From Parcubacteria group bacterium (GTDB taxonomy: Bacteria > Patescibacteriota > Minisyncoccia > UBA6257 > JACRHW01), in the NCBI GenBank assembly GCA_016217555.1, contig JACRHW010000002.1:1-47811 (forward strand): 47,811 bases of DNA. The letters are read 5' to 3'. Made by a program: the position numbers and the translations under genes. The notes under the pieces were generated by a model, which saw only the letters and a program-made list of their open reading frames with translations, searched no databases and was not told where the DNA came from. Of the stretch, positions 14,028 through 47,652 are shown in pieces (within the stretch, counting starts at the first letter, position 1; each line of letters starts with the position of its first letter).

Positions 14028-15551
14028 TCATTCAATCTTTTTTCCTTCTTCAATAATCGTGTTGGTGTCTGGTACATAGGTATGAAGAGGAATAACATCA
14101 ATTCCTCCTTTCCATGCCCTTACGATAGGATCGATAAAACTCCACATGGCCACTACCTCATCAGTACTTACAAAAAGAATTTGTTCTCCAAGAATGCAGT
14201 CGAGAAGAAGCTTCTCATACTCCTCAACATATTGAATCCCTTGCCTATTCTTCCGTAGCACAAAATCGAATGCTCTTTCTTCCATCACAAAATCAAGCCC
14301 CGGCTTCTTCGACCAAAATTGGATGGTGATTCCCTCCTGCGGTTCTAAACCAATAACAACTTTATTTTTATAATGTCTCCCCTCAGTAATAGGGCACAAA
14401 CAAGGTTCTGGATGTTTAAATGTAATTACAATCTCTTTTTTTATCTCACCCATACGCTTCCCTCCTTCAAGCATAATAGGAACCCCCTCCCAGCGAGGAA
14501 CATTGAGTGTCGTCATAATCTTAAAATAAGTCTCTGTGATAGAACGTGGATCCACTCCTTTTATTGAAGCATACCCCTTGTATTGAGCACGGAATGTTTT
14601 CTTCACAACATCCCCCTCGGTGATACTTACAAGATGCTCTAATACTCGCGCACGCTCCTCTCGTATTGCCTCGGCACCATAAGCACGAGGTCGTTCCATG
14701 GTGACAAGCGCAAGCATTTGTAATACGTGGTTTTGCCCTACATCAACAAGCGCACCCACACCATCATAAAACGCACCTCGCTCCTCGACACCGAGTGTTT
14801 CAAAAAAACGAATATCAATACGCTCTATGTGCTTAGCGTTCCAATTATCTTCAAAAAGATTGTTCGCAAAACGGAAACTTAGTACATTTTGAATCATCTC
14901 TTTTGCAAGATAGTGATCGATACGATATACCTGGGTCTCCTTAAAAAGTGTTCCCAACAACTCATCGAGTTCTATTGCTGTTTTTAGGTTACTCCCAAAA
15001 GGCTTCTCAACAAGAACCCTTGTCCATCCCGTTAGGGGGAGAGGCGTGCTGCGAGCCATCGCAACCTCTAATGGGATCCGCCCTTCTTCCTCCCCACCAC
15101 ATGGTATCGTAAGCCCTGAGGTAGCAAGATGCTCAAAAATACCTTTATAAAGTTCTGGGGGCACTGCAAGATAAAATAATTTATTCGTACAAATACCCCA
15201 CTCTTCATCGATGTCCTTAAGACGTTTGGCAAGTGAGATGTAACATGAATCTGTATCTAAAAACCCTTGGTGATAAACAAATGAGTTGAGAAAGTTTGTT
15301 GGATCGCTCTCCTTGTCTTGATCACCCACGTATTTGAGAAAGGCAGACCTAAGATGTTCTCTAAACATTTCATCCGATAATTCCCGCCGCGCAAGGCCAA
15401 CCACCCTAAACGTTGTTGGTAATTTTCTCGCCTTGTATAAATAGAAAAGCGCGGGGGCAATTTTCCTCGCTATCAAATCCCCCGTTGCTCCAAAAATTAC
15501 AAGAATTGTAGGGGTAAGACCATCCCCGCAACCATCTATATTTTTTTGCAT
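14028..15551 (-). CDS. zwf: Glucose-6-phosphate 1-dehydrogenase
   Basis: VIFGATGDLIARKIAPALFYLYK, RVLVEKPFGSNL, RIDHYLAKEMIQNVLSFRFAN; start revised to MQKNIDGC. Confidence 0.95.
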   Translation of the reverse strand: MQKNIDGCGDGLTPTILVIFGATGDLIARKIAPALFYLYKARKLPTTFRVVGLARRELSDEMFREHLRSAFLKYVGDQDKESDPTNFLNSFVYHQGFLDTDSCYISLAKRLKDIDEEWGICTNKLFYLAVPPELYKGIFEHLATSGLTIPCGGEEEGRIPLEVAMARSTPLPLTGWTRVLVEKPFGSNLKTAIELDELLGTLFKETQVYRIDHYLAKEMIQNVLSFRFANNLFEDNWNAKHIERIDIRFFETLGVEERGAFYDGVGALVDVGQNHVLQMLALVTMERPRAYGAEAIREERARVLEHLVSITEGDVVKKTFRAQYKGYASIKGVDPRSITETYFKIMTTLNVPRWEGVPIMLEGGKRMGEIKKEIVITFKHPEPCLCPITEGRHYKNKVVIGLEPQEGITIQFWSKKPGLDFVMEERAFDFVLRKNRQGIQYVEEYEKLLLDCILGEQILFVSTDEVVAMWSFIDPIVRAWKGGIDVIPLHTYVPDTNTIIEEGKKIE

Positions 15552-40157: not shown

Positions 40158-40185
40158 ATTATATATCCTTTACAAAAAAAGTCAA
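40158..40185 (-). promoter_or_regulatory. Strong sigma70 promoter for rpoBC
   Basis: TTGACT (rc 40180-40185), 16-bp spacer, TATAAT (rc 40158-40163). Confidence 0.8.
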
Positions 40186-40287
40186 CCCCGTTAGGGGTAA
40201 GGAAGATATTTGACTATTTACGAAATCTCATAGCTGGAAAAACATATCACCAATTCAATAATCCTTTTTGGTTACCTCTAACGGGGT
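40185..40287. repeat. Solo ACCCCGTTAG inverted-repeat element
   Basis: ACCCCGTTAGGGGTAA (40185-40200)/TTACCTCTAACGGGGT (40272-40287), 15/16 match. Confidence 0.75.
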
Positions 40288-40315
40288 CAAGCTTGACTAT
40301 CCACAAAAGGTTACT

Positions 40316-43774: not shown

Positions 43775-44752
43775 TTATTTAAGATCAACCATTATTTTCT
43801 GCGCGATATGGTGTGCGAAATTAACCGGCACAGCATTACCAATCATTTTGTATCCGTCAGCAACATCACGATATTTGAAAATAAAATCATCAGGAAATGT
43901 TTGAATTCTTGCACATTCCCTTACAGACAAACGACGATACAAATTTTCTTTTCCAGGAACAAAAATCCTTTCGTTTTGACTTATAAACTTCATCTTAGGT
44001 GCCTGCGGATGGATTGGGGCATGACGACCCCCCGCTTGAATTGTGAAAGAAGGTTCATCCCAAGAACGAACGCGATTTCGCGACATATAAATTGTTGAAA
44101 AACCACCATTCATATATTCATGGTTTGGAATTTTCAAATTGTTGCCATTTGTCTTATTTTTATCTAAAGCTGGTTTTGCTAAGCGCAAGTCATAAATTAC
44201 ATCTTTCAAAACAGGTTTATGTTTCTGTGGTTCTGGAAATTCAAATTTCTTTTTTAAATCCTTACGATATCCGATGATAATTATGCGCAAACGATCTTGT
44301 GGAACATCATAATCATTCGCGTTGAGCAATTTTTGGGATATTTCATACCCAGCATTTTCAAATTCCTTAATAATGTTTGTAAATGCTTCTGAGTGTTTGG
44401 GATGAAGAATGCCAGAGACATTTTCAGCAAGAAAAAATTTTGGCTGTTTATCTTTCAGAAGACGAATATAGTCGTGAAAAAGTTGCCCGCGCTTATCATT
44501 AATTCCACGACCGGCACCTGCCTCACTCCAACTTTGGCAAGGTGGTCCGCCAATAATCCCATCAGCATTGGGTATATCAGATGGAGAAATATCAATAATA
44601 CTTCTACGGTCTAGTTTGGTTTTCGGGAAATTATGTTCAAAAGTTTCCCAGATGGTTGAGTCATATTCATTTGCCCAAACAACATGAAAACCAGCTCTCT
44701 CGAAGCCCAGATCAAGTCCACCTGCGCCTGTAAATAATGATACTAATTTCAT
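43775..44752 (-). CDS. C5 cytosine methyltransferase, M.HaeIII-like
   Basis: [70 protein letters not shown]. Confidence 0.95.
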
Positions 44753-44754
44753 AA

Positions 44755-45735
44755 TTAATCGTGACTAATATTTAGTGTATTCTTAAATAATTTCTTTGGT
44801 GATTTTAAAAGATTGATATCAAATTTCAATGATAGCTCAACCCTTGAACTAGCGTTATGAATTCGGAATGAAAGAATCCAATCATTATTCATAGTTACTA
44901 TGGCAGTTGTGTCGCTATCTGCCTTAAGGGCGATGTCAACAATTTCTGTGGGTAATGGAACTTTTGGTGTCTTATATTTGGGTTGTGTATTTTTGAAAGG
45001 GAGGTTAAGCGTTCCATTCAAATTATAAGCGTGAATTTCAACCGAATTTTTTCCTTTGATAACTTTGTAAAAATCTTTATTACCAACCAAATATGCAACC
45101 AAATTTGAAGCAATCTTTTTAGAATCTTTTTTGTAGAGATTTTTCAATTCTTTTATAAAAGCTTTCAAAATCGGAACATAAATCGTTGAGTGATAATCAC
45201 CAAGCTCACTCCACCTTTTCTTTGCCTTACTGTCTTTTCTTATTTTCTCTAACTTATTGAAAATAGGGGTTACTATATCGAAATATTCTTTGGATGTTCT
45301 GATCCCAAGCCACTTTTCACCAAAATCAATACTTGCAGATAGACGAGAATGTTTTACGGCATGATGATTGTTTTTAGCTGATACGCCAATTTCCCATTTT
45401 TGCAGCAATCGAATCGCTAAAACATCTCTTACGTCGCCAAATTTTCCGTGATGATCTGATAAAATTTCAAGTTGTAAAATATCGTCTTTGCCGATGTCGT
45501 TTGAAAGGCGCGGTTCTATGTCCATGAGAAAATTGACCGCAAAACTAGCAGAGAGTAGATAATCGCTTCGTTCTGTCGCGCTCACATTTTCAAAGCAACC
45601 CTTAGCAACTTGAAAAGCCGAATTTTTAATGACCTCGAGATTGGTTTTATCCTTTATCTTTTCCTCGAACTGAATAAGCAAAGCGTATTCAAAGGATTTT
45701 CCCGTTATCATTTGTTTTGAGTTTGTACTTGTCAT
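44755..45735 (-). CDS. Type II restriction endonuclease, HaeIII-like
   Basis: [28 protein letters not shown]; directly upstream of the HaeIII-like methyltransferase. Confidence 0.85.
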
Positions 45736-45739
45736 AAAT

Positions 45740-45946
45740 TTATTTTGTGATTACTTCATAATCCTCTGGATTACCGATAACTCTCACTAACTCTTTAGAG
45801 CCATCGACAGAAATAGCCCCACACCTACATGAGGTTAAATTACTGTTCGTAATAGAAAGAACCTCGGTGCCGCATTTCTTGCACTTGATATAGGTTGCTT
45901 TCTCAGTTTTTGTGACGATTTCCTTTGGCATATATTTATTTTTCAC
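45740..45946 (-). CDS. Small zinc-ribbon protein, 68 aa
   Basis: CKKCGTEV...CRCGAISVDG. Confidence 0.75.
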   Translation of the reverse strand: MKNKYMPKEIVTKTEKATYIKCKKCGTEVLSITNSNLTSCRCGAISVDGSKELVRVIGNPEDYEVITK

Positions 45947-46631
45947 TCTCCAAGCGAGCTTTTAACAAAAAGATGGTCTCAGTTCGAAGCTTTTCACGTG
46001 CCCAATCCTTTTGAGATTCCGTAAGGAAATCTCCTAAACCATCGAGGATGTGCTTATTATCCATCTTCTCTAGTTGCTCAACGGATTTTTGCAGAAGTTC
46101 TTTGAAAAACATGTCAGAACGCTGTTCCACAATCTCTTTATTAATAGGCCAATTATTCTTAAGGAAAAACCAGGTATCATAAACATCACGGCTCGTTTTG
46201 CCGACCCGTTCGTGCATGGCCATAAGTTTGTGAGCAAACATATCCTCCCGAACCATCACAAGCATAGAAATACCAAGCAGGGTCATGATCTCATACCTCG
46301 AACCGAAGTTTCTCCGATTTACTTCAATTTTTATCTTCTGTGCTCCCGCTGCGTATGAGATAACATTTAAAAGATTAGAATGCTTTATGCGTGAATCGAT
46401 AATCGTCCCATAGCCTGCAGTAATGTTATGAATTTTTTCAAACACCTCAACCTCCTTGTTTTCATCCAACAAATCAAAATCTAAATCAACTGAATCGCGA
46501 TTCAAATTATAGAACAAGAGAGCTGCAGTACCACCCTTAAAACCCAAATGAGGTGCAATCGATGTATCAGAGTAAATATCCTTCAAAATCTGAAGCAATA
46601 TATTTTTATGTTTTGAGTAGTCTAGTGTCAT
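45936..46631 (-). CDS. AbiEii/AbiGii-like nucleotidyltransferase toxin
   Basis: FKGGTAALLFYNLNRDSVDLDFDLL; DMFAHKLMAMHER. Confidence 0.88.
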   Translation of the reverse strand: MTLDYSKHKNILLQILKDIYSDTSIAPHLGFKGGTAALLFYNLNRDSVDLDFDLLDENKEVEVFEKIHNITAGYGTIIDSRIKHSNLLNVISYAAGAQKIKIEVNRRNFGSRYEIMTLLGISMLVMVREDMFAHKLMAMHERVGKTSRDVYDTWFFLKNNWPINKEIVEQRSDMFFKELLQKSVEQLEKMDNKHILDGLGDFLTESQKDWAREKLRTETIFLLKARLESEK

Positions 46632-46637
46632 GCGTTT

Positions 46638-46892
46638 TTACCCCGTTAGATAATTTTTTAACCTTGTCTTAATATATCGTTTACCCCAAGTGGTTTTTAA
46701 ATACTTTTCCCGATGCGTTGCATCTTGTTGATTTAAACACGCTTCATAGTAAACCAGCGCTACGGGCAAACGATTCTTCGTTGATGTTACTTTGCCATCG
46801 TTATGTAACCTCAATCTTTCTTTGAGGTCGCTTGCATAGCCTGTATACAGTTGTCTATCTTTCTTACTTTGTAAAATATAAGTGTAAAACAT
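46638..46892 (-). CDS. GIY-YIG endonuclease-domain protein, 84 aa
   Basis: FYTYILQSKKDRQLYTGYASDLKERLRLHNDGK; REKYLKTTWGKRYIKTRL. Confidence 0.93.
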   Translation of the reverse strand: MFYTYILQSKKDRQLYTGYASDLKERLRLHNDGKVTSTKNRLPVALVYYEACLNQQDATHREKYLKTTWGKRYIKTRLKNYLTG

Positions 46893-46904
46893 ATCTAACG
46901 GGGT
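46640..46904. mobile_element. GIY-YIG gene bounded by 13-bp perfect inverted repeats
   Basis: ACCCCGTTAGATA (46640-46652)/TATCTAACGGGGT (46892-46904); ATG and stop lie at the repeat edges. Confidence 0.6.
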
Positions 46905-47512
46905 GAAGTTTTATTAGGTTGAGTGCTTTTATGGTGCTCAAAATATGTTTTTACCTTTTTCTCCATGCGTTTATTGTGGTAAATAGGCAAAATCTCAAAA
47001 ACTTTCTCCCAATCCAACACATCTAAGTTATCAAAGTGATAATCTTTGCTGATATAAATGCGATCCAAAAAAGCACGCTCTTTAGTTGCGGTGGCGATGC
47101 CACCAGTGTGTTCGATACCGGTGGTATTACTCAATACATAGTCTTTCATCCGAATGAATGAAATCTTTTGTCCATCGGCTTCGATTTCTCTCGTCACGTA
47201 TGTGGCAACAAAAATATTACCGTAGTATTGAAAATTGATTCCGGTATGGGTCAATACTGTTTCGAAGCTAATGTATGAGGGGGTATAAATACGAGTCGCC
47301 AATTCAAAGCGATTATAATTTTTGTCTTTTGCATAAATGCCACGATGTACTCGGATCAACTTACCGCTTCTTACATAACTGTTTAATCTGACCCTCACTG
47401 CATTTTCCGCCTCTACACCCCACATCAAAGCTACATCTTTGTTAGAAAAGATGGTCTTAGAAGATCGCAACAATATCTCTACGTATTGACCTTTTGTTGG
47501 TTTGTTATCCAT
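46895..47512 (-). CDS. AbiEi-like wHTH antitoxin
   Basis: wHTH KGQYVEILLRSSKTIFSNKDVALMWGVEAENAVRVRLNSYVRSGKLIRVHRGIYA; IATATKERAFLDRIY; start revised to MDNKPTK; stop TAG inside the CCCCGTTAG repeat. Confidence 0.8.
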   Translation of the reverse strand: MDNKPTKGQYVEILLRSSKTIFSNKDVALMWGVEAENAVRVRLNSYVRSGKLIRVHRGIYAKDKNYNRFELATRIYTPSYISFETVLTHTGINFQYYGNIFVATYVTREIEADGQKISFIRMKDYVLSNTTGIEHTGGIATATKERAFLDRIYISKDYHFDNLDVLDWEKVFEILPIYHNKRMEKKVKTYFEHHKSTQPNKTSPR

Positions 47513-47600: not shown

Positions 47601-47652
47601 ACCCCGTCAGAAATCTTAGCCACCCACTCTGGGCGACTTATTTCTAACGGGG
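47601..47652 (-). terminator. ACCCCGTTAGAAAT hairpin acting as probable rRNA terminator
   Basis: CCCCGTCAGAAAT (47602-47614)/ATTTCTAACGGGG (47640-47652); minus strand continues TTTTGTTTTG. Confidence 0.65.

Follow-up and report, generated by a model that had tools for sequence, protein, structure and literature searches.

We identified a 263-bp unit in the genome of a Parcubacteria group bacterium that is bounded by terminal inverted repeats and has a single-domain GIY-YIG nuclease as its sole protein. We consider it likely (probability of about 0.7) that this unit is a minimal autonomous DNA transposon, with MITE-like and tRNA-carrying derivatives. It lies in the window, by which we mean the whole stretch of 47,811 nucleotides that was analysed (Table 1). 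Mobility of the family is well supported by sequence, with the reservation that no transposition has been observed. Comparison of the copies established that the units insert at a 4-bp target of loose sequence (mostly TNNA, with TTCA favoured), which is duplicated around many of the non-coding copies. It also established that the same repeats bound non-coding derivatives of ~100 bp and tRNA-carrying derivatives, and that the repeat type covaries with the protein phylogeny. The role of the GIY-YIG protein as the mobility enzyme is inferred; neither cleavage nor transposition was observed.

Table 1. Features of the window discussed in the text, with window positions
Feature	Position	Strand	Basis or remark
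AbiEii nucleotidyltransferase toxin gene	45936..46631	-	9 bp downstream of element
AbiEi-like antitoxin gene	46895..47512	-	ATG chosen as start by comparison with homologues; final codons and TAG inside element repeat
GIY-YIG element, 263-bp unit with terminal inverted repeats	46641..46903	-	Sequence and family-wide anatomy
Terminal inverted repeat CCCCGTTAGATA, ORF 3' end	46641..46652	+	
Terminal inverted repeat CCCCGTTAGATA, ORF 5' end	46892..46903	-	
84-aa GIY-YIG nuclease gene	46638..46892	-	PF01541, conservation, AF2, Foldseek, dN/dS
4-bp flank TTTA	46637..46640	+	TAAA on element coding strand
4-bp flank TGAA	46904..46907	+	TTCA on element coding strand; usual upstream flank of subgroup A2
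101-bp MITE-like element CCCCGTTAGG..TCTAACGGGG, second family member in window	40186..40286		Exact 4-bp duplication TCAA at 40182-40185 and 40287-40290
51-bp hairpin-like member between AbiEi and 5S rRNA gene	47602..47652		No matching 4-bp flanks

In the window, the unit is an insertion between the two genes of an AbiE toxin-antitoxin system. The genes before and after the GIY-YIG gene matched AbiEi_4 and AbiEii in Pfam, respectively, and PADLOC assigned them to AbiEi (7e-56) and AbiEii (1.5e-77). In relatives, the antitoxin and toxin genes are contiguous, ranging from a 4-bp overlap to ~12 bp apart in the pairs for which both genes could be delimited. Since AbiE pairs are contiguous in relatives and interrupted here, the unit was inserted. 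The pairs compared were about 31-57% identical to that of the window, except for that of G014, the closest homologue (74/78% identical), in which the AbiEi stop codon TGA overlaps the AbiEii ATG. In-silico removal of the element together with either 4-bp flank restored this type of overlap, which makes the 4-bp register the preferred one at this site. Both removals restored the overlap, so the test does not distinguish whether TTTA or TGAA was the original copy. For a TTCATAAA target without duplication, which was considered and not preferred, removal of the element alone leaves an in-frame TAA for AbiEi but does not restore the overlap. A direct duplication is not met at the window element (TTTA/TGAA). 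A group I or group II intron at the locus was also rejected, as an Rfam search gave no match beyond 5S rRNA. A HaeIII-type restriction endonuclease and a C5 methyltransferase are encoded beside the AbiE pair (43775-45735), forming with it a small defence cluster.

The coding sequence is packed tightly against the ends of the unit. Exact 13-bp inverted repeats are present (ACCCCGTTAGATA at 46640-46652 and its reverse complement at 46892-46904), of which the repeat proper is the perfect 12-bp CCCCGTTAGATA and the 13th base is part of the flanking 4-mers. The GIY-YIG start codon overlaps one repeat by one base. The other repeat encodes the C-terminal residues LTG, and the stop codon TAA extends into the flanking TTTA. 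The frame of AbiEi ends CCC CGT TAG inside the repeat. The two flanks of the element on the + strand have the T..A form of the target duplications of the family but differ from one another. A preliminary description had proposed a self-contained insertion into an AbiE-like pair, an 84-aa GIY-YIG ORF fitted between perfect 13-bp inverted repeats with its ATG abutting one repeat, its terminal codons drawn from the other and AbiEi ending in the repeat. All of this held, with the repeat proper refined to 12 bp, and the uninterrupted AbiE pairs of relatives show that the insert is not ancestral.

The window protein is a member of the GIY-YIG nuclease superfamily by both profile and catalytic residues. 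It matched PF01541 with E=1.4e-14 (54.6 bits against a cut-off of 22.6). Its catalytic residues Y3/Y5, Y16-G18, R26, H30 and E62 are conserved; among 49 sequences, Y5, Y16, G18, R26 and H30 were invariant, and Y3 and E62 were found in at least 90%. AlphaFold2 gave a confident minimal GIY-YIG fold (pLDDT 93.5), and Foldseek matched the model to UPF0213 (1zg2), Slx1 and I-TevI. The median dN/dS in relatives was 0.11 (417 pairs, which are not independent), indicating purifying selection on the GIY-YIG codons. No other ORF lies inside the window repeats, and no transposase match was obtained in Pfam, NCBIfam, PHROGs or PADLOC. Of the features by which a transposon is recognised, a coding unit with a terminal inverted repeat at either end is present, and a recognised transposase or recombinase is not encoded.

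Repeats of this kind accompany GIY-YIG genes widely. The 818-kb source genome contains seven GIY-YIG matches. A second copy, on contig 15, has ends of the same kind (TCCCGTTAGAGATA) and is flanked by an exact TGAA/TGAA duplication. A third (G000:C21:131696-131863) has quite different perfect ends, ACCCCGCCCCCTA, which suggest a further subgroup. In relatives of the same order, inverted repeats were found just outside the gene at most of the best-matching GIY-YIG loci, with at least three repeat sequence types. Across 80 loci, a pair of inverted repeats fitted tightly around the GIY-YIG gene in 71, compared to 17 of 400 shuffled flank pairs (4%; p=8e-58), when a repeat score of 9 or more was counted as positive. 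The loci came from GTDB genomes of patescibacteria, from MAGs of Planctomycetes, Desulfobacterota, Omnitrophota and others, and from the complete genome of Candidatus Brocadia pituitae; most of the source genomes are MAGs. The preliminary description would have been refuted by homologous GIY-YIG genes lacking repeats, and this count did not refute it. Repeat types clustered on the protein tree, with 9 changes compared to a shuffled mean of 42, on a tree built from few columns and with many open forks. All five proteins nearest the window protein have the TTAGATA repeat type. At loci L055, L057-L059 and L065, repeats of another type (CCCxGTxxTACAACTT and similar) surround the GIY-YIG gene, and some of these loci have TATG or CATA on each side. 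A phage, plasmid or viral origin was rejected, as only distant or single matches were found.

The repeats of the family also form gene-less, inward-facing pairs ~100 bp apart. In the source genome, the 11-mer TTCTAACGGGG has 16 exact occurrences, in inward-facing pairs, compared to 0 occurrences of a reversed-pattern control. Identical 4-bp flanks were found in 15 of the 24 elements tabulated in this genome (re-paired mean 2.0, maximum 8). Among 56 repeat pairs in relatives, 30 had an exact 4-bp duplication (re-paired mean 5.5, maximum 12) and none had one when the flanks were offset by 1-3 bases. Comparison of two genomes of the same genus revealed clean empty sites holding only one copy of the target, at C3:78507 and C3:77455 of the source genome and at C5:3851 of G001, so that the elements also meet the expectation of empty sites and multiple loci. 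The empty site of the window MITE could not be read, as the sister contig ends there. The ~100-bp derivatives have all the attributes of MITEs: they are short, non-coding, bounded by terminal repeats common to a coding element, flanked by target duplications and present at many loci. They were found in 22 of 61 relatives, all among the 49 with a GIY-YIG match and none among the 12 without (p=0.0025, uncorrected for kinship). Some genomes with many such elements (G006) have only a distant GIY-YIG match. A degenerate inward pair, TCCCGTTAGG..TCTAATGGGA, of about 50 bp at window positions 15027-15076 is probably another short hairpin member.

A complete tRNA gene was enclosed by 10 of the 56 repeat pairs in the set of relatives and by 22 units in the final set, several of which sit inside a broken tRNA gene. 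In the source genome, a tRNA-Gln(ctg) unit bounded by the window repeat CCCCGTTAGATA (G000:C3:15047-15230; L024 201-384) splits another tRNA-Gln in the T-loop, and its cargo is the sole intact copy found in the genome. At G000:C2:18279-18389 (L035 379-489, L289), tRNA-Val(cac) lies inside variant repeats, CCCCGTTACAAATT, adjoining the halves of a broken tRNA with a further insert. Genes for 41 anticodons were found in this genome, only one for each, and in the case of tRNA-Gln(ctg) and tRNA-Val(cac) that one is the cargo copy. When joined, the outer halves best matched the same isotype as the cargo in 14 of the 22 units (p about 3e-7 at an assumed chance of 0.15 each), with the tRNAs of the source genome as the comparison panel. 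In the other 8, the outer gene was decayed, absent or ambiguous. Deletion of 4 nt at the junction restored a same-isotype anticodon loop in several units. Units inside broken tRNA genes of relatives (L169, L175, L182, L201, L205, L222, L226, L228, L229, L231 and L244) mostly carry Pro, Val or Thr tRNAs and mostly lie at the anticodon loop. At L169, the outer broken tRNA-Arg is far closer to the tRNA-Arg(tcg) of the source genome than to its own cargo tRNA-Arg(tcg), and the cargo may therefore have come from elsewhere. A bolder reading joins two proposals: that a single-domain GIY-YIG nuclease alone is the mobility enzyme, which would define a new transposon class, and that its non-autonomous derivatives insert in an essential single-copy tRNA gene, often at the anticodon loop, carrying a same-isotype replacement so that insertion is tolerated and loss would be lethal. 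We hold that this joint reading could as readily fail as stand.

These observations bear on the possibility that the inverted repeats are RNA-level features, such as a terminator, a processing stem or a device for translational coupling, around small genes and tRNAs. In favour of this, the short family members (29-51 bp) are hairpins and some repeats flank tRNA genes. It is contradicted by the exact duplications of 4 bp, by the clean empty sites seen when sister genomes are compared, by the near-identical interiors of a pair of elements at different loci of one genome (the C13 pair) and by the tRNA-carrying units inside other tRNA genes. We regard it as all but excluded.

The flanks of subgroup A2, to which the window element belongs, require a separate explanation. 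A direct 4-bp duplication was found at only 1 of 46 A2 loci; duplications are found for the non-coding copies and for part of subgroup A1, including the second GIY-YIG copy of the source genome. The A2 flanks follow a strong pattern on the coding strand, with TTCA or TTTA upstream (usually TTCA) and TAAA or TGAA downstream, where the TRA also provides the stop codon. The tRNA-carrying units often have one A2-type flank and one target-like flank. The likeliest reason for the unequal flanks, inferred by analogy to Tn916, is that the element carries along a 4-nt overhang, which takes the place of one target copy. The upstream reading frames of A2 gave no consistent signal. Hairpin-loop targeting found no clear support either, as flank complementarity beyond 4 bp was not obviously above chance (15 of 46 at position 5; no formal test).

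On the transposon reading, the GIY-YIG protein would recognise the repeats and cut both the element ends and the 4-bp target in a staggered manner. It would drive insertion not only of the element that encodes it but also, acting in trans, of the non-coding and tRNA-carrying elements, and host repair would seal the joints. In A2, one overhang would move with the element in the manner of a Tn916 coupling sequence. Known GIY-YIG enzymes hydrolyse DNA and none is known to join strands, which counts against this reading. Further evidence against it includes the near-absence of duplication in A2, the failure to find ~100-bp elements of the CCCTGTTAAA repeat type in the 61 relatives, the merely distant GIY-YIG match in some genomes rich in such elements, the enrichment of Y1 transposases in genomes with them (below) and the predominance of MAGs among the sources.

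The main rival is that the GIY-YIG protein is a passenger or a retention nuclease, as proposed for TnpB/IscB, and that another transposase moves anything with the repeats. Genes for Y1 transposases of the REP-associated type are present in 16 of 61 relatives, including the source genome, and are enriched in genomes with ~100-bp elements (10/22 compared to 6/39, p=0.016). In the Tsy transposon, moreover, the GIY-YIG protein is merely accessory (PMC10293859). Against this rival, 12 of the 22 genomes with ~100-bp elements have no Y1 transposase, and no repeat hits lie near the two Y1 genes of the source genome. Transposition of the IS200/IS605 type is not known to make a target duplication, and this family has 4-bp duplications. 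The repeat type also follows the GIY-YIG phylogeny across phyla. The inward-facing pairs tabulated in the source genome enclose a GIY-YIG gene, a tRNA or no gene, and never another transposase gene. We therefore consider the passenger reading unlikely, with the qualification that Y1 transposases were the sole other candidate enzyme tested and DDE transposases were outside the survey.

A second rival is a free-standing homing endonuclease gene, in which the GIY-YIG protein would cut an empty allele and the gene would be copied in by homologous repair. I-TevI belongs to the same superfamily, and the second GIY-YIG copy gave a loose match, below the cut-off, to TIGR01453 (group I intron endonuclease). 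Homing is expected to involve a long recognition site of its own or an intron or intein; no intron family was found at the locus, and the insertion sites differ, having only ~4 bp in common. Nor does homing lead one to expect terminal repeats in inverted orientation, duplications of 4 bp or copies of the MITE-like kind, and we judge it very unlikely. The preliminary description had inferred a minimal homing or transposition unit. This is supported, and of the two, transposition fits better: save for the loose 4-bp target the sites are unrelated, 4-bp duplications accompany non-coding copies, and there are MITE-like copies. Both mobility and enzyme activity remain inferred from sequence.

If the transposon reading is correct, these elements would rank with the smallest known autonomous DNA transposons, and they would bring in a nuclease fold that is not known as a stand-alone transposase. 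In the tRNA-carrying forms, a genome parasite would be seen to replace an essential tRNA gene with a copy that it carries itself. Elements that measure 100-300 bp and have one small protein can easily be rebuilt and assayed, so movement of DNA by a GIY-YIG protein alone is directly testable. The reading could also account for the GIY-YIG genes reported in CPR rRNA genes and for the short insertions there that lack an explanation. Tsurumaki and colleagues described, in such genes, GIY-YIG genes that are not part of group I/II introns, together with many ORF-less insertions of <200 bp, and judged that they were not spread by homing (PMC11270868). The term 'inverted repeat' is absent from that text, and we noted no proposal of a transposon in it. 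These genes and insertions may belong to the present family, which is a possibility we infer without having compared those sequences. An Rfam search of 60 of our loci gave no empty site through insertion in rRNA, only tRNAs and one sRNA. Within the literature searched, which left out most subscription journals and all preprints, no GIY-YIG element of this kind is described, and this large family in small uncultured bacteria appears to be undescribed.

Among known systems, the UPF0213/YhbQ-like GIY-YIG proteins (PDB 1zg2, 1ywl) are the closest solved relatives by sequence (E 5.6e-11) and fold, and have the same minimal single-domain size. They are not known to be part of an inverted-repeat element, whereas the window gene is bounded by terminal repeats and the C-terminus is often repeat-encoded in the family. 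The GIY-YIG homing endonucleases I-TevI and I-BmoI and other free-standing homing genes are likewise selfish genes with little else, of the same superfamily. This family differs from them in lacking both an intron and a separate DNA-binding domain (84 aa) and in having a loose 4-bp target, terminal repeats, 4-bp duplications and MITE-like derivatives. The Tsy transposon (YRec, HTH, TnsF, GIY-YIG) is also a mobile element encoding a GIY-YIG nuclease, as a non-essential accessory to tyrosine recombinases and with no inverted repeats detected (PMC10293859); in the window element, the GIY-YIG gene is the only gene. REP elements with their RAYT (Y1) proteins also have short hairpin repeats dispersed between genes. 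Identity with them was rejected, as it would require a Y1 transposase tied to the repeats and no target duplication, whereas this family has 4-bp duplications, no Y1 gene among its repeats and many host genomes without Y1. The coupling sequences of Tn916 are proposed solely as an analogy, for short flanks that differ from one another and pass from the donor to the target. Tn916 differs in having a 6-bp coupling sequence and a tyrosine recombinase, compared to 4 bp and no tyrosine recombinase here. Unlike insertion sequences, the window element has no DDE, HUH, serine or tyrosine transposase, and its total of 263 bp is far below known IS size. With insertion sequences and MITEs it has in common terminal inverted repeats, short target duplications in its family, non-coding derivatives and tight packing of the ORF.
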